Assembly (NCBI GenBank): GCA_024689485.1
Contig: JAILDK010000078.1
Span: 1-44,862 of the forward strand
Direction: 5' to 3'
Length of the DNA stretch: 44,862 nucleotides
From: Fibrobacter sp.
Lineage (GTDB): Bacteria > Fibrobacterota > Fibrobacteria > Fibrobacterales > Fibrobacteraceae
Shown: positions 20,757 through 42,068 of the stretch, one piece after another
Numbering within the stretch: position 1 is the stretch's first letter
Layout: every line of letters begins with the position of its first letter
Program-made: the position numbers and the translations under genes
The notes under the pieces: model-generated
What the model saw: the letters and a program-made list of their open reading frames with translations, nothing else
The model's database searches: none
Told to the model about the DNA's origin: nothing

Positions 20757-20984
20757 ATGAATGAAAAATTGCAAATTATTGAAAAATCTTTAAAAGAACT
20801 CGGATTTTCAACTGAGCGAGATTTTTTACCTGTAGTTCTCGATAAGTATGTTTCTATGGGTGGCAAGTTCTCGTATTGCGGAGCCACGAATAAAAAAATG
20901 CATTTGGAACTTGATGATGAATTCCAAATGCTTGATAATATCGCCTATTCTTTGGGACTCGAATTTGTAGGATTTAAAAGCTAA
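20757..20984 (+). CDS. 75-residue protein of unknown function
   Basis: The short ORF has a good ribosome site (GAAGGA upstream of ATG 20757) and AT-rich codons like its neighbour. The product is soluble, with an N-terminal amphipathic helix and a mixed C-terminal part containing two aromatic/Gly turns. I do not recognise a family. It lies 52 bp after the ORF6N gene on the same strand and its end overlaps the convergent restriction endonuclease gene by 11 bp. It could be a regulator or inhibitor tied to the restriction system or just island cargo; no evidence decides. Confidence 0.5.
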   Translation: MNEKLQIIEKSLKELGFSTERDFLPVVLDKYVSMGGKFSYCGATNKKMHLELDDEFQMLDNIAYSLGLEFVGFKS

Positions 20985-21816
20985 AGGAAATAAGTTTTGC
21001 GTCTCGCAGATTAGCAGGGTTGTTTGGATCTTTGATGCGTATGTTGGAAATCGTTAATGCCCTTTCAGTTACCGCTAAATTTTCCAAAGATGAGGTGTTT
21101 CCAAGTGTTGCCCATTTTTCATTATTGATGATGCACATAAATGAAAAATGGTTGTTGGAATTTCGCTGGTATACATAAGAAAAAACTTTCCATGGGTTTT
21201 CTATGCCCCACATACCACGAACTCGCATATATGTTATGCCTAGGGGATCGACCTTGTTGATGTGGCCGAGTTCTCGTGATTCGGCAAATTCAATTGAAGG
21301 AATGCTTTCTACGGATTCTTTGATGGTATTCTTTATTCTCAAATAACAGGATTCGTCTGCGCAATAATCCATGCCATAGACTATGCTCAATTGTTTTAGT
21401 TGGTTGCTTTGCACGAATCCGACAACATACATGATATCTTTACAATCCCATTGTTCGGCCTTTTGGCAAGCTTGGCTTATCATTTGACTGCTTGCGAATA
21501 GCTTGTTTTTGGGGTAGCTACTATTTAAAGCTAGTGCAGAATTGGGTGATTCGATTTTCTTGACTTCAATGGCGTCTCCTCCACGTAACATGGCGTCCGG
21601 TGGGTTTGAATTGTTTCCAAGATAAGAGAATGTGTTGCTGATTTTTTCTAGTCGTTGCGCACCGTCTATATTGAATGTTCCTGCAAAAAGGTCTTTGACG
21701 TATTCTTCTAAGCCATCGCCAGAATTGTTAGCTCTGTTGTTTCCCGCAGTATTTTCAAGAAGGGAATTACTTTTGTAATTCACGAGATTGATGATTGCAT
21801 CAATGATATTGCTCAT
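20974..21816 (-). CDS. NgoPII-like type II restriction endonuclease
   Basis: The 280-residue product resembles the NgoPII endonuclease family, whose members cut GGCC. An N-terminal RANNSGDGLEEYVKDLF block and a PD-(D/E)XK site are visible: D74 in PPD, then E84-V-K86 in DAIEVKK. A conserved-looking ALNSSYPKNKL follows. The start overlaps the methyltransferase stop (ATGA), so methyltransferase then nuclease is the operon order, which protects DNA before cutting can begin. GGCC specificity is inferred from both family resemblances. No frameshift is seen, so it is probably active. Confidence 0.82.
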   Translation of the reverse strand: MSNIIDAIINLVNYKSNSLLENTAGNNRANNSGDGLEEYVKDLFAGTFNIDGAQRLEKISNTFSYLGNNSNPPDAMLRGGDAIEVKKIESPNSALALNSSYPKNKLFASSQMISQACQKAEQWDCKDIMYVVGFVQSNQLKQLSIVYGMDYCADESCYLRIKNTIKESVESIPSIEFAESRELGHINKVDPLGITYMRVRGMWGIENPWKVFSYVYQRNSNNHFSFMCIINNEKWATLGNTSSLENLAVTERALTISNIRIKDPNNPANLRDAKLISFSF

Positions 21817-22802
21817 TTCAAATCCTTTTTGATTTGCATTGCCATAGCGTAGGCAAGATTAACAGGAACTGCATTGCCGATGACTTTATAGCCAACAGAA
21901 ACATCTTTATAGATGAACTTGTAATCGTCGGGAAATGTTTGAATTCTTGCACATTCACGAACGCTTAATCGTCTATATTCTGATTCGTGACCTGGTGCGA
22001 AAATTTGCTTGTTCTTTTCGACCTTGACCATCTTGGGCGCTTTGGGGTGAAGTGGAGCTTGTCGTCCGCCCGCTTGAATTGTAAATGAAGGCTCGTCCCA
22101 GCTACGCACTCTATTGCGTGACATGAATATGGGAGAAAACCCTCCAGTCATATATTCATGATTGGGAATGCTTAAGTCTTTATTTGCTTTGTTGAATTTT
22201 TGGGCGGGAACGGCTTCTGGCAAATCGCCAATAGCTTCCTTTAGATTAGGTTTATGTTCTAAAGGTTCTGGATGAATGAATTTTTTGTTTAAATCTTTTC
22301 TGTAACCAACGATGATGACTCGTTCTCTGTCTTCGGGAACATTGTAATCATTTGCATTGACGAGCTTCCAGGAAACATTATATCCGGCTTCTTCGAATTT
22401 ATTTAAAAACTCTTGGAATGATTTATAATGTCTAGAGCTAAGAATCCCTGATACGTTTTCGCATAAGAAAAACTTCGGTTGTTTCGCTTTTAATACGCGA
22501 ATGTAGTCATAAAACAATTGCCCTCGTTTGTCGTTTATCCCTCTTCCAGCTCCAGCTTCGCTCCAACTTTGACAAGGTGGTCCACCAAGAATACCATCGC
22601 AATCTGGAATCTCGTTTTCAGAAATCTCCGTTATACTTCTATGATCTAAAGGAACGCTTGGATAATTGGCTTCGAAAGTTGCCCATATGGATTTGTCGTA
22701 TTCGTTTGCCCATATGATTTTAAATCCAGCGTTTTCAAAACCTTTGTCTAGTCCACCGCATCCCGAGAAGAGAGAGACTATTTTAAAAGCTGTTTTTGCC
22801 AC
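21813..22802 (-). CDS. DNA cytosine-5 methyltransferase, predicted GGCC-specific
   Basis: The chosen GTG start (22802) has GGAG 7 nt upstream and gives 329 residues beginning just before the KIVSLFSGCGGLD SAM motif; ATG 22839-22841 would add 13 residues but has no ribosome site. C5-methyltransferase motifs are complete: GGPPCQSWSE with nucleophile C77, CENVSG, RERVIIVG, VRECARIQTFPDD and GNAVPVNLA. The target-recognition region has IFMSRNRVRSWDEPSFTIQA, closely like M.HaeIII and M.NgoPII, which methylate GGCC. Codon use is AT-rich like the rest of the block. It is paired with the downstream nuclease gene. Confidence 0.9.
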   Translation of the reverse strand: MAKTAFKIVSLFSGCGGLDKGFENAGFKIIWANEYDKSIWATFEANYPSVPLDHRSITEISENEIPDCDGILGGPPCQSWSEAGAGRGINDKRGQLFYDYIRVLKAKQPKFFLCENVSGILSSRHYKSFQEFLNKFEEAGYNVSWKLVNANDYNVPEDRERVIIVGYRKDLNKKFIHPEPLEHKPNLKEAIGDLPEAVPAQKFNKANKDLSIPNHEYMTGGFSPIFMSRNRVRSWDEPSFTIQAGGRQAPLHPKAPKMVKVEKNKQIFAPGHESEYRRLSVRECARIQTFPDDYKFIYKDVSVGYKVIGNAVPVNLAYAMAMQIKKDLK

Positions 22803-22820
22803 TGCTCGCTCCGTGTTGAA

Positions 22821-22836
22821 AGTGAACGAGTTCACT
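22821..22836. promoter_or_regulatory. palindrome upstream of methyltransferase start
   Basis: AGTGAAC-GA-GTTCACT has perfect 7-bp arms and a 2-bp spacer. It lies 19 bp upstream of the GTG start on the transcript or promoter side. The size and position suit an operator for a dimeric regulator, as in many restriction-modification systems, but no controller gene is seen. Confidence 0.4.
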
Positions 22837-22886
22837 CTCATTGGAGCGGTTCTGGCCGATTCGCTTGGCCGGGGTGCGGACAAAAA

Positions 22887-24161: not shown

Positions 24162-26504
24162 CTATTTCGATTTCCGCTCGAGTAGGCATGTGTATTCGGC
24201 TGCACGGATAAAATCTTCCTGATGCTCGATTGCGATCACGGTATGGCCGTTTTTGCAAAGCTCTTGGATGAGAGCGATCATGCGGTCAATGTCGTTCTTG
24301 TGCAGGCCGCGGGCGGGTTCATCGAATAAGAAAAGCGTGTTCGGGAACTTCGCACGGGAAAGCGCGAGCGAAAGTTTTAACCGGGCCGCTTCACCGCCGG
24401 AAAGATGCGTTGTCGGCTGACCGAGCCGCAAGTAACCGAGGCCCGTGCGCACAAGAGGCTGCAAACGGTCCGAGAACTTGTGCGCAAATCCGAAGATCGT
24501 CGCCGCCCGTTCCACGGTCAAATCCAGCACATCGGCAAACGAAAGCGTCTTAAATCGAATTTCCAAAATTTCATCGCGGAAGCGCTTGCCTTGGCAAACC
24601 GGGCATTCGGATTCTTCGTATCCCGAAGGATCGCGCAGAACGCCTTCGCCCTTGCAGGTTTCACAGCGTCCGCCCGGCGTTGCCGTGCTGAACTTGGACG
24701 CGGAAAACCCTTTGACTTTACTTTCTGGGAGGCCTGCAAACAGGTCGCGGAGTAACGGCGCAATTCCGATCGCGCTTGCGATCGTACTGCGCCGGTTGCG
24801 GAAAAATCCACGGGTGCTGAGCAATGAAATATTCTGAATGCCGAGCTTTTTAAAATCGCCCTTGGCAAATCGCGGCTGGATGTTTTCAAAGAGGACGGTG
24901 CTTTTTCCGCTGCCGCTTTCACCCGAAATGACGCTGAAATGTCCGACGGGGAATTTGGCGCTCACCGGCAGCATGTCGTACTTGGCAAATTTCTGCACGG
25001 TGATGTGTTCCGCATCTTTGATCGCAGGCTTCTTTTCTGCCTTCTTGGATTTTAGAATATCGCGAAGCCAAGCGCCTGTCGGCGAATCCTTTTTCTCCAT
25101 CAGTTCTTTGGGAGTTCCCTGGAAGAGAATTTCTCCGCCGAGTTCCCCTGCGCCGGGGCCCATTTCAATCACCTTGTCCGCCTTTTCGATGAGGATCGGA
25201 TTGTGTTCGATCAAAACGAGCGTGTTTCCGCGGTCGCGAATTTCTTTGAAAATTTCCCAGAGCTTTTCGACATCGGTTTTGTAAAGGCCGCTCGCCGGTT
25301 CGTCGAGGCAAATGCACATACCATCCAAGTGGCCTGTCGCCAAAGGCGAAAGGCGAAGCCTTCCGAGTTCACCGCCCGAAAGGGTGCTGCCGATACGGCC
25401 CGCGCCGAGGTAGCCGAGCCCGACTTTGTTTACCGCGTGGATGCGGGCGTAGAGCATGTCGGCGGTGCTCTTCAAATGTTCGGGCAGGCGTCCGTTAAAG
25501 AGCTTGGGAAGGAGCGTGTCGAGAGTCGCGAAGGACGATTCGAGAATGTCCTTCCAGGAGGTTTCGTCGACAGTCGAGGCGAGAATTTCTTTTTTAAGGC
25601 GCAGTCCGTGGCATTCCGGGCAAATGTCCGGATCGCGGTCTTCCGTTTCGCTGTAGATTTCTCCGTCGCCGTTGCAGCACGGGCAGCGGAATTTTGGAGA
25701 ATGCGGGGTAAAATCGCCCGGTTCGAGCGGGGCGGCGGTCGTGTTGTGCTCTTCGCAGAACGGAATCGTGCTGAAGGTGGTGCGCGTTCCGCCATTATCT
25801 AAAATGACTTTCGTATGCGAAAAGCGGAGAGTCGCATCGACCGCTTCGGCGATGCGGGTGCGGACGCCTTCGCGGATGATGACGCGGTCTAATACGACGA
25901 ACAGTTCCTTTGGCTTGGACTTGCGTTCTGCCGGGGTCAGGTCGCCGAGGGAAAGGCTCTTGCCATCGCAAAGGACGCGCGCATAACCTTGGGAAAGGAG
26001 CGTTGCCGACAGCGCATCGAGCGTCAAACCTTGGACGTCAATCGGCGCAAGAAACTGCAGACGGCTGCCTTCGGGCAAGTTGCAAATTTTGACGATGATG
26101 CTTTCACGGGAATCGCACTGCATCGGCTTTCCGCAGACCGGGCATGCGGGGCGGGCGAGAGCCGCCCATAAAATACGCAGGGGAAATTCACATTCCGAAA
26201 GGGAAAGCGGACTCGATTTAGACGGAGCGTCTCCGCGGGAAGCAGAAATCGCGATACTCGGGCGCAGGCCTTCTGCGTTGTCCAAGGGAATGCTCGTTCT
26301 GCCGCCCAGAACTTTTAAGGCGAAGGGACTGAGCGTTTCCAGGTAACGCCTGCGGCTTTCTCCATGCAACACGTCCATGACGAGCGTGGACTTTCCGCAG
26401 CCCGAAGGTCCGCAGACAACGGTAATCTTTCCGAGGGGAAAATCCGCGTCTAGGTTGCGGAGGTTGCGAAGGTGCGCGCCGCGGAGGGAAATATTCTGGT
26501 CCAT
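24162..26504 (-). CDS. short UvrA-like ABC ATPase
   Basis: The 780-residue protein has the UvrA plan: two ABC ATPase halves with Walker A GPSGCGKST (about 32-40) and GESGSGKST (about 525-533), signature motifs LSGGELGRL near 371 and LSGGEAARL near 698, and Cys-rich zinc segments (CPVCG near 120, CPCC/CPEC near 275-300, CETC/CPVC near 605-625). It is about 160 residues shorter than housekeeping UvrA (about 940), with the shortfall between Walker A and the first signature where the UvrB-binding domain normally lies. It may act in damage or drug tolerance without UvrB, as suggested for other UvrA paralogues. It starts 8 bp after the outer-membrane protein gene. Confidence 0.8.
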   Translation of the reverse strand: MDQNISLRGAHLRNLRNLDADFPLGKITVVCGPSGCGKSTLVMDVLHGESRRRYLETLSPFALKVLGGRTSIPLDNAEGLRPSIAISASRGDAPSKSSPLSLSECEFPLRILWAALARPACPVCGKPMQCDSRESIIVKICNLPEGSRLQFLAPIDVQGLTLDALSATLLSQGYARVLCDGKSLSLGDLTPAERKSKPKELFVVLDRVIIREGVRTRIAEAVDATLRFSHTKVILDNGGTRTTFSTIPFCEEHNTTAAPLEPGDFTPHSPKFRCPCCNGDGEIYSETEDRDPDICPECHGLRLKKEILASTVDETSWKDILESSFATLDTLLPKLFNGRLPEHLKSTADMLYARIHAVNKVGLGYLGAGRIGSTLSGGELGRLRLSPLATGHLDGMCICLDEPASGLYKTDVEKLWEIFKEIRDRGNTLVLIEHNPILIEKADKVIEMGPGAGELGGEILFQGTPKELMEKKDSPTGAWLRDILKSKKAEKKPAIKDAEHITVQKFAKYDMLPVSAKFPVGHFSVISGESGSGKSTVLFENIQPRFAKGDFKKLGIQNISLLSTRGFFRNRRSTIASAIGIAPLLRDLFAGLPESKVKGFSASKFSTATPGGRCETCKGEGVLRDPSGYEESECPVCQGKRFRDEILEIRFKTLSFADVLDLTVERAATIFGFAHKFSDRLQPLVRTGLGYLRLGQPTTHLSGGEAARLKLSLALSRAKFPNTLFLFDEPARGLHKNDIDRMIALIQELCKNGHTVIAIEHQEDFIRAAEYTCLLERKSK

Positions 26505-35467: not shown

Positions 35468-36577
35468 ATGAAGATTTATTCCGCGATTGCAGCAGTTTTC
35501 CTCGGCTGTTTTTTGCTTGTAGCCTGTTCTTCGGAATCCGCGGATTCCGCTTCCCAGAAAAAAGCTTCTTCTGCAAACAAAGCTTCTTCCGCAAACGGTA
35601 AAATGCGCACGTTGCGCGTTTCCGGCTACATCGCTGTTCCGGATTCGACGTCGGGAACTTATACGGCCGACGGTGAACTTGTCGCCAAGGCGCAGGTCGA
35701 TCTGAAGGCGGAAACGTCGGGAAAGCTCGTGAAGCTGTATGCGAAGGACGGGCAGAAGGTTTCCAAGGGAACGCTCCTTGCAAAGCTCGATGACGCAGAA
35801 CTCCAGGCGAATCTCAAAAGTGCAAAGACCGCTTTGGAACTTGCAGAAAAGAAAGCGGCCCGCACCAAGACCCTTTATGAAAAGGACGGCGCAACGGCAG
35901 AAGAACTCGAATCCGCAGAAAGTGCCGTGGAATCGGCAATGGCTTCGAAAGAACTGATCGAAGCTCAACTTCAAAAGACCGAAGTCCGCGCCCCGTTTGC
36001 AGGAACGCTCGGCGTAGTCGAAGTTTCGGAAGGCGCCTGGATGACTTCCGGGGCGCAGATTGCAACGCTCACGAATACGAGCGAACTCAAGGTGGAATTT
36101 GAACTGCCGCAGCGTTTTTCCCGCAATGTCAAGGTGGGAAACAAAGTCGTTTTGATCGACACGGAACAGGGAATTCAAGCCGACGCCAAGATTTGCTTTT
36201 TGGACGCGACGATGTCGAATTCGAGCCGTACCCGTAAGGCGCGTGCGCTTTTGAAAAATGCAGACGGAAAATATTTGCCGGGAACGTATGTGCGTGTAAA
36301 ACTCGATTTTGGCCAGGGCAATCTTGTGGGAATCCCTGTGCCTTCCGAAGCGGTGACGCTCGATGCGAATGGCGCCTACGTTTTTGTGGTCAAAGACGGC
36401 AAAGCGAAAAAGGTGGACATTCAGACTGGTTTAAGAACCCCGATTACGGTCGATGTGGTGCAGGGCCTTTCTGCGGGCGATACCGTGGTGGCTTCGGGCC
36501 TCATGAATGTGCGTAACGGCATGGGCATCGAAATCAAGGAAATTTCGAATAACATGAGCTACGGGGTGAATGAATGA
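35468..36577 (+). CDS. RND efflux periplasmic adaptor lipoprotein
   Basis: The 369 residues begin with a lipoprotein signal (LLVAC, lipidated C20) and a Ser/Ala/Lys linker with a duplicated KASSAN. The membrane fusion protein plan follows: a lipoyl half (VDLKAETSGKLVKLY near 78), an alpha-hairpin of about 65 residues rich in Ala/Glu/Lys, the second lipoyl half (RAPFAGTLGVV near 176), and a beta-barrel and membrane-proximal domain. It bridges the pump and outer channel across the periplasm. It overlaps the pump gene by 4 bp. A possible promoter lies in the 101-bp gap before it, but I cannot fix it. Confidence 0.9.
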   Translation: MKIYSAIAAVFLGCFLLVACSSESADSASQKKASSANKASSANGKMRTLRVSGYIAVPDSTSGTYTADGELVAKAQVDLKAETSGKLVKLYAKDGQKVSKGTLLAKLDDAELQANLKSAKTALELAEKKAARTKTLYEKDGATAEELESAESAVESAMASKELIEAQLQKTEVRAPFAGTLGVVEVSEGAWMTSGAQIATLTNTSELKVEFELPQRFSRNVKVGNKVVLIDTEQGIQADAKICFLDATMSNSSRTRKARALLKNADGKYLPGTYVRVKLDFGQGNLVGIPVPSEAVTLDANGAYVFVVKDGKAKKVDIQTGLRTPITVDVVQGLSAGDTVVASGLMNVRNGMGIEIKEISNNMSYGVNE

Positions 36578-39500
36578 GTTTTTCCACACTTTCCATTCGT
36601 CGCCCGGTGCTCGTGACGGTGCTCTCTTTGGGCATTGTCCTGATCGGCGCTTTTGGCGCTTCGAACTTGGGCATTCGAGAATACCCGAATGTGGATTCTC
36701 CGATTATTACGGTTCGCACCAGTTACACGGGCGCAAATGCTTCGGTGGTGGAAACGGAAGTCACCGAAATTATCGAAGCGTCGGTGAACAGTGCTTCGGG
36801 CATTAAATCGCTTACGTCGACGAGTTCCGATGGAAGCTCCACGATCCGTGCGGAATTTGAAGTGGGGACGGACCTCGAAGCGGCGGCGAACGATATCCGC
36901 GACCGCGTTTCCCGTGTGCAGAGAAAACTTCCCGATGGGGCAGATGCGCCTGTCGTTTACAAATCCGATTCGGATTCCGATCCGATTTTGATTGCGAGCC
37001 TGCTTTCGGATACCCGCGATGCGATGGAACTTTCGGAAATTGCGACGAACGTGGTGAAGGAACGTTTGCAGACGATTGCGGGCGTTTCGGAAGTGAACCT
37101 GTGGGGTTCGAAAACGCCGGTGGTGCGCCTTTGGCTCGATCCTTTGCGCATGAAGGCGATGGGAGTGACCGCGTCCGATATTTCGTCTGCGCTTTCCGTG
37201 GAAAACGAAGAACTTCCGGCGGGTAAAATCGAAGGGCAGACGATGGACCTTTCCATTCGAACGCTTGGCCGTTTGAACAGCCCTGCGGATTTTAATTCGA
37301 TCCCGGTGAAGACCGCTGCGGACGGCTCCATTGTAAAGCTTTCCGATGTGGCGACGATTCATTACGAGCCGAAGGATACGCGTACCGGTTTTAAGCGCAA
37401 CGGCAAGAACGTGATTTCGGTGGCGGTGATTGCGCAACCCGGTTCGAACCATGTGGCGATTGCCGATGACTTTTACAAGCGTGTGGAAGCGCTCCGCCGC
37501 GATTTGCCGTCGGATATTCAGATTTTGAGCGGGCGCGATACTTCGGTGAATATTCGTTCCTCGATTCAGGAAGTAATCGAAACGATCTTCATTTCCTTTT
37601 TGCTCGTGATTGCGGTGATTTTTGTGTTCTTGCGCGAAGCGCGGACGACGCTCATTCCGATGGTCGTGATTCCCGTTTCGATTGTGGGAAGTTTCTTTGT
37701 GCTTTACCTGTTCGGCTTTTCGATCAACGTGTTGACGCTCCTTGCGATGGTGCTGGCGATTGGCCTTGTGGTGGACGATGCGATTGTGATCGTGGAAAAT
37801 ATTTACCAGAAGATTGAACGCAATATGTCGCCGAAGGCGGCTGCGGTAGCGGGCATTCAGGAAATCTTTTTTGCGGTGATTGCGACGTCCGTGGTGCTGA
37901 TGGCGGTGTTCGTGCCGATGCTTGCCTTGGGCGGAACGACGGGACTTCTCTTTCGCGAATTCGTGGCGGTGATGATCGGGACTGTGGTGATTTCGACCTT
38001 CTGCGCCTTGACGCTCACGCCGATGCTCTGCTCCAAGATTTTGCGTGTGCAAAAAAAGGGCGTTCTTTACAATGCGACCGAGCCTTTCTTTGAATGGCTG
38101 AACGAAATTTACAATACGCTGTTGAACGCTTTCCTCCGCGTCCGTGGACTGATCTTTGTGATCATCGGTGCGCTGATGGTGGCTGCCTATTTTTGCTTCA
38201 CGAACCTTTCGACCGAAATGGCTCCGCAGGAAGACAGCAACATGTTCATGGTGAACATCTCTGCGCCAGAAGGAACGGGTCTCGGTCAGACGAAAAAAAT
38301 GTCCGAAGCTTTTGTCGAAGAAATGACGAGCCTCATGGATTCAATAGAGTACGAAGAAATTCAGGCGGGCGCACGCTCGGGCGGAAGCTCCATGATCCGC
38401 GTGACGCTAAACCGCGACAAGTCCAAGCGCCGTTCGCAAAGCGAAATCGCAAGACAGGTTCAGGTCTTGGGCGCGAGCTATCCGGACTTGCGCGTGATGG
38501 TCTTTGAACCGCAAAGCATCAGCACGAGCCGTGGAGGCTTACCGGTACAGTTTGTACTGCAGGCGGGAGACATCGAAGTGCTCCGCGAGCTGCTTCCGAA
38601 GTTCACCGCCGAAGCGGAAAAAAGTCCAGTATTCAGCGTGGTCAATGCGGACCTCAAGTTCACCAAGCCGGAACTTCACGTAGAAATCAACCGTGAAAAG
38701 GCTCACGACCAGGGCGTCTCCGTTGATGCCATTGCAAAAACAATCGCTCTGACGATGGGCGACCAGACCTATGGCGAATTTTACAAGGAAGGTCGCCAGT
38801 ACGATATCATCGGAGCGGTGCCGTATCAGTATCGCGCGTCTCCGACGCACCTGGATGAACTCAGCGTTCGCAACGGTTCCGGGGAAATGGTTTCGGTTTC
38901 GAACTTTATTACTTATAAAGAAAAGTCCGCATCGCCTTCGCTGCCGCGTTATAACCGCTTTAGTGCGGCGACGATTTCGGCGGGCCTCATGCCCGGAAAA
39001 ACGGTGGGCGACGGCGTCGCGGAAATGCGCCGCATTGCGAAGGCGGTAATTCCGGATTCGCTGAATATCCAGACGGAACTCACTGGAACTTCGAAGGAAT
39101 ATGAAGAAAGTTCTTCGGGACTTTACGTTGTCTTTTTGCTTGCACTTGCCTGCATTTTCCTAGTGCTCGCGGGGCAGTTTGAAAGTTACCGCGCTCCGTT
39201 TGTCACCTTCTTTACGGTGCCGCTTGCGATTGCGGGCGCTGTGATTTCGCTGTACTTCTTTGGACAGACCTTGAACATCTTTAGTGAAATCGCTCTGATT
39301 TTGTTGCTTGGCCTGGTGACGAAAAACGGCATTTTGATTGTGGAATTTGCCAACCAGATTGCTGAACGCACGGGTTGTTCTCGTCTTGCTGCGGCAAAGA
39401 AGGCTGCCCGTTTGCGCTTCCGTCCGATTCTCATGACGAGCCTTTCGACGGTTCTCGGCGCGCTTCCTCTGATTTTGACGGGAACGCCGAGCCGCATTGC

Positions 39501-40980
39501 GATGGGCGTGACGATTGTGTGCGGCTTGACCTTTGCGACGTTCTTAACGCTGTTTGTGGTGCCGGCGGCGTATTCGTTCTTTGCGAGCAAGCCGAGCCGC
39601 AGTGCAAAAATCGACCCGGAGGCGAATGCGGATCCGAATACGGGCGTAAAGCTCGCTTCGATGCTCTTGCCGATGCTTTTTGCGGGAATCATGCTCCTTC
39701 CGCAGACGGCAAATGCGGCGGTACTTTCTCCCGAAGAAGCGGTGCAGACGGCGATTGAAAAGAATGCATCTGCTTTGATTTATGAAGAGAACGTGAAAAG
39801 CGCCGAAGCGAGTGTGAAGAGTTCGCGCAAGGGACTTTTGCCGACCGTGGACCTTTCGCTTTCGCGGTATTACACCTATGGCGATGCATATTCCAAAACG
39901 CAGGCCGGTGTGACGTCGGATATCGATGATGATTTGGGCCACAGTGACGCCTTTCAGATTGCGGTTAATTATACGGTCTTTGACGGCTTTAACGATATTT
40001 CTGCGTACAAGGCGAGCAAGGCTCAGGTCGAAAGTTCCAAGGCCGCGTTACGGGCCGAAAGGGAATCCTTGGCGGCGAATGTGCTGACCGCTTATTTCAA
40101 TGCGGTGAATGCGAAGTCGGCACTTGTCCTTGCGGATTCGAACCTTTCCGTTTCGAGAGAGCGCCGCGAACTGGCGAAGAACAAGTATGAAGCGGGCTCG
40201 ATGACGCGGCTCGATTTTCTTTCGGCGCAAATGGACTTTTCGAGCGACAGCTCCAAGCACCTTTCGCTCGAATCGAAACTTTCTTCCGCCATCCGAACCT
40301 TGGACGAACTTTTGGGCGGTGGCGTCGTTCACAGCGGAAGCGATCTGCCGGATTCGATCGACGTCGAACGGGAACCTTCCTGGAAAACAGAAGAAGGCCT
40401 TGCCCGTGCCAAGGAACGCGCCTTGGAAAACAATGCGGACCTCGCGGCGGCCAAGGCGCAGATGAAGTATGCGCAGGTGAACCGTCAAGGTTCGAATTCG
40501 AATCTTTACCCGAAGCTCAATTTGCACGGTTCTTGGAATGCGACCGCGAGCGAATCGGACAAGTCGAACCCGGAAGAAGCGAACAGCCAGTATTTTAAGG
40601 TTGGCGCCGCTCTGACGTGGAACCTGTTCAACGGTCTTGCGGACAATGCGGCTTCGGAATCGGCGAAGATTGCGGAACGGTCTGCGGAACTGCAGGTCGA
40701 AAATGTGCGCCTGAATGTCGAAACGAAAGTTTCGAATGCGGTCGATGCGCATCTCCGCTCCTTAGACGCTCTGCAGGTCGCCGAAGGCAATGCGGAACTC
40801 GCCGCGGAAATGCTAAAGCTCGGGGAAGAACGCTTAAAGGCGGGAAGCATCACGAACTTTGAATTCCGCGAAACGCAAAGTCAGTGGAGAACGGCGCGCG
40901 AATCGCTCCTTTCGGCGCGAATCGCCTCTCGCACCGCGGAAATCCAGGTGAAACTTTTGACGGGCGATATTTTGAAGTAG
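36574..40980 (+). CDS. RND efflux pump fused to TolC-type outer-membrane factor
   Basis: A single 1468-residue frame. Residues 1-1010 are an HAE1/AcrB-like proton-driven pump: SIRRPVLVTV at the N-terminus, the TM4 acidic pair D401-D402 in GLVVDDAIVIVEN, and TM10 lysine K917 in GLVTKNGILIVEFANQ. After a charged linker (1011-1024) comes a signal-peptide-like stretch (K1026, hydrophobic 1027-1042, then QTANA-A, likely cleavage after A1048). Residues 1049-1468 are an outer-membrane efflux protein with two helical-hairpin repeats and barrel segments. Since the AcrB C-terminus faces the cytoplasm, an added signal sequence would place the TolC part correctly in the periplasm. No ribosome site for separate translation is seen at the joint. 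The substrate is unknown. Confidence 0.9.
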   Translation: MSFSTLSIRRPVLVTVLSLGIVLIGAFGASNLGIREYPNVDSPIITVRTSYTGANASVVETEVTEIIEASVNSASGIKSLTSTSSDGSSTIRAEFEVGTDLEAAANDIRDRVSRVQRKLPDGADAPVVYKSDSDSDPILIASLLSDTRDAMELSEIATNVVKERLQTIAGVSEVNLWGSKTPVVRLWLDPLRMKAMGVTASDISSALSVENEELPAGKIEGQTMDLSIRTLGRLNSPADFNSIPVKTAADGSIVKLSDVATIHYEPKDTRTGFKRNGKNVISVAVIAQPGSNHVAIADDFYKRVEALRRDLPSDIQILSGRDTSVNIRSSIQEVIETIFISFLLVIAVIFVFLREARTTLIPMVVIPVSIVGSFFVLYLFGFSINVLTLLAMVLAIGLVVDDAIVIVENIYQKIERNMSPKAAAVAGIQEIFFAVIATSVVLMAVFVPMLALGGTTGLLFREFVAVMIGTVVISTFCALTLTPMLCSKILRVQKKGVLYNATEPFFEWLNEIYNTLLNAFLRVRGLIFVIIGALMVAAYFCFTNLSTEMAPQEDSNMFMVNISAPEGTGLGQTKKMSEAFVEEMTSLMDSIEYEEIQAGARSGGSSMIRVTLNRDKSKRRSQSEIARQVQVLGASYPDLRVMVFEPQSISTSRGGLPVQFVLQAGDIEVLRELLPKFTAEAEKSPVFSVVNADLKFTKPELHVEINREKAHDQGVSVDAIAKTIALTMGDQTYGEFYKEGRQYDIIGAVPYQYRASPTHLDELSVRNGSGEMVSVSNFITYKEKSASPSLPRYNRFSAATISAGLMPGKTVGDGVAEMRRIAKAVIPDSLNIQTELTGTSKEYEESSSGLYVVFLLALACIFLVLAGQFESYRAPFVTFFTVPLAIAGAVISLYFFGQTLNIFSEIALILLLGLVTKNGILIVEFANQIAERTGCSRLAAAKKAARLRFRPILMTSLSTVLGALPLILTGTPSRIAMGVTIVCGLTFATFLTLFVVPAAYSFFASKPSRSAKIDPEANADPNTGVKLASMLLPMLFAGIMLLPQTANAAVLSPEEAVQTAIEKNASALIYEENVKSAEASVKSSRKGLLPTVDLSLSRYYTYGDAYSKTQAGVTSDIDDDLGHSDAFQIAVNYTVFDGFNDISAYKASKAQVESSKAALRAERESLAANVLTAYFNAVNAKSALVLADSNLSVSRERRELAKNKYEAGSMTRLDFLSAQMDFSSDSSKHLSLESKLSSAIRTLDELLGGGVVHSGSDLPDSIDVEREPSWKTEEGLARAKERALENNADLAAAKAQMKYAQVNRQGSNSNLYPKLNLHGSWNATASESDKSNPEEANSQYFKVGAALTWNLFNGLADNAASESAKIAERSAELQVENVRLNVETKVSNAVDAHLRSLDALQVAEGNAELAAEMLKLGEERLKAGSITNFEFRETQSQWRTARESLLSARIASRTAEIQVKLLTGDILK

Positions 40981-41054: not shown

Positions 41055-42068
41055 ATGAGTAGAATTCTGTGTTTGGTGGTATGTTTAGCGGCCTTCCTCT
41101 TTGCCGAGGAAAAGCTCCCGGTTTATAAAACGGACAATCCCTCTTCCAAGATTATCGGCTACCTGACCGTTTCGGACAAGGTGGAAGAACTTCCGATTCC
41201 GCCGAAAAAGAAGAAGGTGGTGAAGTACGTGAAACAGCGCAATTCCAAAAAGAAAAAGCGCGTGGTGAAGTACGTGGATCTTCCTCCTGGACCGCCGCCG
41301 GAATACATTCCGGTGAAGACCCGCTTTGCGAAAAAAGGCTATGTGCGCCGTGCGGATCTTGCCCGCATGAAGGAACGCGCGACGGACTTGAGCGGTATCT
41401 ATTCTTCGCCGACGGGAAGCGTTGTTCTTTCCAAATCTCCGAATTCTCCGGGGCGTTTCAATATTGTCATTCAGAATGGGCATGGAAAGTTCCGTGCCGC
41501 GATCTCGATGGGAAACGTGCAGGCGAGGGATCAGTTCGGGCATACGCGCTTCAACTATACGGAACCGGGCTGCGTCGTGGATGTGGATCTTTATGAACGC
41601 AAAGTGCGCGTGGCGCAGAAGGGCTGCGAAGAATACAACAGCCCGCGAAACAAGCTCGAAGGCGCGTACAACGAGTACAAGGAATACCGCCACCGCGCCG
41701 AAGTCTTTAACGATCCGGAATTCTCCCGGACTTATGAAAAGTATGTCTGGTGCCCGGAAGGTCCAAGCTCCTGCGAACGGATCAGCGATGAAGAAGACTG
41801 CGACGTTCAAATCATCTGGAGCAAGGATTCCCGCGGCATGATCGAACGCCACTGCGGCGAACACGTTCACAAGTACCGCCCCATGGAAAGCATGATCCCG
41901 CACAAGCAGGACTTTTACAAGGGCGAAAAGCCGATCATGGTCAAGGCGAAGCGCACCGACATGGCGAACGAATGGATGATCTGGTCTTACTATCCGGAAG
42001 CGAAACGCTTTAAGATGGTGCGCCACGGCATGCGACCGGACGCCGCCTACATGGAAATTTACGAGTAA
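41055..42068 (+). CDS. secreted SH3-like protein with Lys-rich repeats
   Basis: The 337 residues begin with a signal peptide (cleavage near residue 17, LFA-EE). Residues 18-105 look like a bacterial SH3 domain (LPVYKTDNPSSKIIGYLTV, then KKGYVRRADL) split by an insertion with two copies of a KKKK(R)VVKYV motif (51-59 and 65-74) and a proline run. The C-terminal part (about 110-337) is unfamiliar, rich in Tyr, Lys and Cys, and has several possible disulfides. The protein is likely periplasmic or surface bound and may bind polyanions or peptidoglycan; that is inference. Confidence 0.6.
   Translation: MSRILCLVVCLAAFLFAEEKLPVYKTDNPSSKIIGYLTVSDKVEELPIPPKKKKVVKYVKQRNSKKKKRVVKYVDLPPGPPPEYIPVKTRFAKKGYVRRADLARMKERATDLSGIYSSPTGSVVLSKSPNSPGRFNIVIQNGHGKFRAAISMGNVQARDQFGHTRFNYTEPGCVVDVDLYERKVRVAQKGCEEYNSPRNKLEGAYNEYKEYRHRAEVFNDPEFSRTYEKYVWCPEGPSSCERISDEEDCDVQIIWSKDSRGMIERHCGEHVHKYRPMESMIPHKQDFYKGEKPIMVKAKRTDMANEWMIWSYYPEAKRFKMVRHGMRPDAAYMEIYE

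Follow-up and report, generated by a model that had tools for sequence, protein, structure and literature searches.

How can a single open reading frame supply both an inner-membrane pump and an outer-membrane channel? The question is raised by a frame of 1468 codons (36574–40980, forward strand) that lies, uninterrupted by any stop codon, in the window, the 44,862-nucleotide stretch of Fibrobacter sp. DNA analysed here. From the ORF list, Pfam and NCBIfam, its product (1468 aa, ATG start) reads as an RND pump fused to an outer-membrane factor (OMF). The frame very probably encodes a two-protein precursor, or polyprotein, of a tripartite drug-efflux pump, which would be cut at an internal signal peptide and would go back to an ancestral fusion followed by later losses of the channel.

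The AcrB-type RND pump occupies residues 1–1003 (36574–39582, forward strand), almost all of which belong to a full-length ACR_tran domain (residues 4–1003, 896 bits; Pfam). The top NCBIfam match of the fused frame was NF033617 RND_permease_2, with 975 bits against a curated cut-off of 1250; TIGR00915 scored 702 bits against 940. The CzcA model TIGR00914 scored 336 bits against a cut-off of 701, below the level of CzcA/CusA-type membership. Because the multidrug RND permease models rank first and CzcA lies far lower, the pump is, judged by sequence, HAE1-like, as the original prediction held, though it stays below every curated subfamily cut-off. The proton-relay residues, expected to be intact, are indeed in place: in an alignment with solved MexB/AcrB-type chains, D401, D402 and K917 fall on the corresponding relay residues, and R950, assigned by eye and by motif only, lies in a matching RxRP motif.

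Directly upstream, in the same operon, lies the gene for a periplasmic adaptor of the RND_mfp type with the lipobox LVAC (35468–36577, forward strand; TIGR01730, 245 bits, cut-off 94.9; HlyD_D23). Its stop codon overlaps the start of the pump by 4 nt (ATGA), and its translation is probably coupled to that of the pump–channel frame. The locus holds the same three parts as AcrAB-TolC and MexAB-OprM, in the same order of adaptor, pump and channel and with similar pump and channel folds; in those systems, however, pump and channel each have a gene and an N-terminus of their own, whereas here they are fused. Downstream of the fusion, a gene at 41055–42068 (forward strand) encodes a protein of 337 aa that carries a signal-like stretch at its N-terminus and has no Pfam match. 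Elsewhere in the window, on the reverse strand, a gene for an NgoPII-type type II restriction enzyme overlaps a C5-cytosine methyltransferase gene (20974–22883), forming a complete restriction-modification pair, and a UvrA-like protein (24162–26504) that contains a UvrA interaction domain but, at 780 aa, is shorter than the usual ~940 aa is possibly a UvrA2-type paralogue.

The second half of the fused frame, residues 1049–1468 (39718–40977, forward strand), contains two OEP stretches, the better of which spans residues 1053–1248 (194 bits; Pfam); the TIGR01844 type_I_sec_TolC model scored 134.7 bits on the fused frame, below its cut-off of 225. An AlphaFold2 model of the joint and the channel reached a mean pLDDT of 74, with low confidence in the joint itself. 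In this model the channel half forms four strands and two helices of ~70 residues, and its best PDB matches are TolC and OprM (TM 0.6–0.7). As modelled, it is thus a complete TolC-type protomer, which agrees with the complete OMF that had been proposed to follow the pump. Between close relatives, dN/dS was 0.05–0.09 for the OMF, 0.03–0.05 for the pump and 0.14–0.48 for the linker together with the signal. By these ratios, strong purifying selection acts on the channel half, at a level close to that on the pump.

The claim that pump and channel form one polypeptide, and the survey of relatives suggested to check it, were both borne out. The same full-length fusion recurs in 11 further genomes, with identities down to ~60%, and so in 12 genomes from five genera of Fibrobacteraceae; the carriers are gut and environmental relatives of Fibrobacter intestinalis. 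It is found in every one of the six genomes of the window's genus, among them a single-contig assembly of 3.1 Mb and the genome of the isolate F. intestinalis ATCC 43854 (L094); the window's own genome is a 132-contig assembly. Outside this genus it occurs in genera g5 (G062, G064), g7 (G145), g9 (G147) and g10 (G148, G149), with one copy, in G064, interrupted by a contig end. The recurrence in 12 genomes, an isolate and a single-contig assembly among them, rules out a sequencing or assembly error, the first of two ways in which the original prediction could have failed. More generally, the probability that two genes were joined by chance or error, through loss of a stop codon or faulty assembly, is negligible: nothing speaks in its favour, and both halves are under strong purifying selection. 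The second way, separate genes in close relatives, fares no better, as the locus there holds either the fusion or a channel-less pump and no separate OMF. In Fibrobacter-type genomes, no separate OMF gene was found downstream within the flanks read, and no match to the fused-type OMF at E ≤ 1e-12 was among those listed for that genus.

How the two halves could be separated is suggested by the joint. Behind a variable hydrophilic linker defined by the joint alignment (residues 1004–1024; 39583–39645, forward strand), residues ~1025–1048 (39646–39717, forward strand) form a 13th hydrophobic segment with the features of a signal peptide, namely a Lys, a hydrophobic core and ANA↓A, where the arrow marks the predicted cut. 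The joint reads KPSRSAKIDPEANADPNTGVKLASMLLPMLFAGIMLLPQTANA↓AVLSPEEA, with A1049 at +1, and the signal-like region predicted at about 1025–1049 was therefore correctly placed. All 12 joints of Fibrobacteraceae share one layout, in which a linker of charged or polar character leads into a hydrophobic core with an A-x-A motif close behind (ANA, SNA, ASA, VEA, AAA, SFA, AFA, VHA, VYA and others), some with several possible A-x-A sites. As a control, the same simple rule (A at −1; A, V or S at −3; a fixed distance window after the core) was passed by 55 of 253 ordinary pump helices (22%); the 12 joints being related and non-independent, the contrast of 12/12 with 22% is supportive and is not a probability.

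In length and hydrophobicity the segment would suffice for a membrane helix, and it lies within one open reading frame; it might instead remain uncut and serve as a membrane anchor, with pump and channel on the same chain. We consider this very unlikely. All 12 fusions retain the A-x-A motif, although the joint otherwise evolves fast, and OMF homology begins only ~10 residues past the hydrophobic core, a distance that, from the geometry of tripartite pumps, would be far too short to reach a channel sitting in the outer membrane. Moreover, the A↓Q and lipobox joints of other fusions, described below, fit peptidase sites and not tethers.

The channel could also be produced, partly or mainly, from an internal translation start, in which case the fusion would be only partly used. 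A search of the joints for in-frame ATG, GTG or TTG codons with an upstream anti-Shine-Dalgarno match gave candidates in some genomes only. Several fusions have an ATG in the n-region of the signal (SKMA), and G003 has a GTG-Lys ideally placed for such a start. At this position G000 has GTA, however, and G004, G064 and G001 are without a well-placed start before the positive residue of the signal; Shine-Dalgarno matches upstream of the n-region candidates are weak or missing, and across the fused joints neither a start codon nor a Shine-Dalgarno sequence is conserved. We therefore give internal initiation a very slim chance. Because the start candidates are not conserved and three genomes lack a well-placed one, synthesis of the channel most likely requires the pump part to be translated first.

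From these features we infer the topology, export, cleavage and stoichiometry of the polyprotein as follows. Pump and channel would be translated as one chain, of which the AcrB-like part would insert with its C-terminus in the cytoplasm, the established topology of the AcrB family; by the same analogy, the linker is presumably cytoplasmic. As the pump ends in the cytoplasm, segment 1025–1048 would enter the membrane as a type I signal whose C-terminal side faces the periplasm, the orientation that A-x-A cleavage needs. Acting as an internal Sec-type signal peptide, it would re-start export and take the channel part into the periplasm, where signal peptidase I would cut after A1048. The channel would then trimerise and go to the outer membrane, and the signal would either stay on the pump, giving it a 13th membrane helix, or be trimmed away. 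Cleavage would supply pump and channel at a fixed 1:1 ratio, matching the 3:3 ratio of known tripartite pumps. The closest known precedent may be the cytochrome b/c1 precursor FbcH of Bradyrhizobium, which is cut by signal peptidase and in which an internal signal peptide and an exported protein come after a polytopic membrane protein with a cytoplasmic C-terminus. The layout is the same as in the pump–channel fusion, but FbcH belongs to a respiratory complex and both of its products stay in the inner membrane.

Fusions from other lineages give a comparison that weighs more than the count of the 12 related joints. They were counted only where the joint itself was read, given that the length of an open frame can span a stop, and no frequency is claimed; four candidates (L195, L197, L198 and L199) were rejected, as their long open frames span a stop and each consists of two separate ORFs. 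CzcA-type RND–OMF fusions, whose occurrence in Bacteroidetes had been pointed out in the original prediction, appear to be common in Bacteroidia. These proteins (~1450 aa; L172, L173) also combine an RND permease, an in-frame TolC-family protein and an internal signal peptide, but their pump is of the CzcA/CusA type, with TIGR00914 above cut-off, unlike the HAE1-like pump of Fibrobacteraceae, and the two are separate lineages. All 12 joints sampled from Bacteroidia (L180–L191) read A↓Q, matching the Q-rule of Bacteroidetes signal peptidase I substrates (PMC5837995).

The contrast drawn between CzcA-type fusions in Bacteroidetes and the HAE1-like pump found here holds, but it needs extending, since HAE1–OMF fusions also occur in Ignavibacteria/Kapaibacteria-type genomes (L107, L111, L115) and in family f7 of Fibrobacterota (L046, L048). 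These likewise join a multidrug-type RND pump to an OMF through a signal-peptide-like joint, which reads AEA↓R, VSS↓Q, TAAS↓Q, SNA↓G or SHA↓Q among the Kapaibacterium-type, Melioribacter/Ignavibacteria-type and f7 fusions. Their OMFs, however, are ~25% identical and fall outside the Fibrobacteraceae clade, and the f7 pumps are ~28% identical; they are probably independent of the Fibrobacteraceae fusion. In two further fusions the joint is a lipobox: L174 (1438–5985) combines an HAE1 pump above the TIGR00915 cut-off with a NodT-type OMF above the TIGR01845 cut-off through LQSC, and the RND–OMF fusion L196 has LLGSC. Such joints would be internal type II signal peptides, that is, they would yield a lipoprotein from mid-chain. 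Across the fusion lineages the joint matches the signal type of its OMF and phylum, as would be the case if the joints were used and cut, and this speaks for a functional signal peptide at the joint in fusions of both signal types.

The history of the locus was read from two trees. On the pump tree (IQ-TREE, 34 rows), the fused pumps do not form one group, as the unfused pumps of g6 (Fibrobacter type), G150, G152 and G063 lie among them; a single clade of fused pumps is rejected (AU test, P = 4e-52; 0.0026 without G063). On the OMF tree, by contrast, the fused OMFs form one clade (100/100) with no stand-alone member, and the only other OMF homologues found in the phylum are distant. The unfused g6 pumps end in DASKMA directly before the stop codon, a tail that matches the n-region of the internal signal, whereas fused relatives read DASKMAGFLLP... 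at the same point, and the fused proteins of g5, g7, g9 and g10 continue with DASKMAGFLLPL..., DVSKMAGLLGPV..., DATKMAGFLLPV... where g6 stops. In G063 (g5; L044), 56 nt within the first ~150 bases past the pump stop align with the beginning of the signal/OMF part in its sister G062. This alignment scored 24, against a maximum of 19 in 20,000 shuffles and 7–9 at seven other unfused loci, and shows loss directly, the sequence having the appearance of decaying remains of the channel half behind an unfused pump. Such a relic was detected downstream of the pump in G063 only, and not in g6 genomes or G152.

Conversely, each genus might have acquired its own fusion, the DASKMA tail being an old pump tail. 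The state does change several times on the pump tree, whose support near the base is moderate, but we regard this order of events as unlikely, given the single OMF clade without stand-alone members, the G063 relic and the outgroup pump tails read, which are without DASKMA. Taken together, the two trees, the DASKMA tails and the relic indicate loss of the channel half in G063 at least; on the simplest reading, g6 with G150 and G152 lost it too. The pattern thus looks like one fusion in the ancestor of the Fibrobacteraceae pump clade, then several channel losses, the counts of loss and gain, and the age of the fusion, hinging on weakly supported branches (G152 and the unfused f2 genome G046). 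In outgroups of the phylum the OMF has its own gene, located behind that of the pump (L050, L052, L057, L060), a likely starting state. Several losses of the channel with the pump kept amount to a natural experiment and raise the question of which OMF the orphan pumps use now; possible partners are the separate efflux proteins of the outer membrane that are expressed in F. succinogenes (PMC4619616).

The RND–OMF fusion as such is already known from the CzcA type of Bacteroidia; a search of a paper collection with few subscription titles found no description of an RND–OMF fusion or its processing. As far as the searched literature goes, the HAE1-like fusion in Fibrobacteraceae, the cross-lineage evidence for a signal-peptide joint and the scars of loss are new. 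Textbooks give few examples of bacterial polyproteins whose parts must end up in two different membranes. With cleavage, export of an outer-membrane protein would begin in mid-chain, behind a 12-helix membrane protein, and the culturable F. intestinalis makes a direct test possible. In a wider reading, to which we give an even chance, a cleaved inner-/outer-membrane polyprotein is ancestral in Fibrobacteraceae, and the combination of RND pump, internal type I or II signal and OMF arose several times independently as a recurrent way of the FCB group to fix a 1:1 supply, with a 13th pump helix left over.
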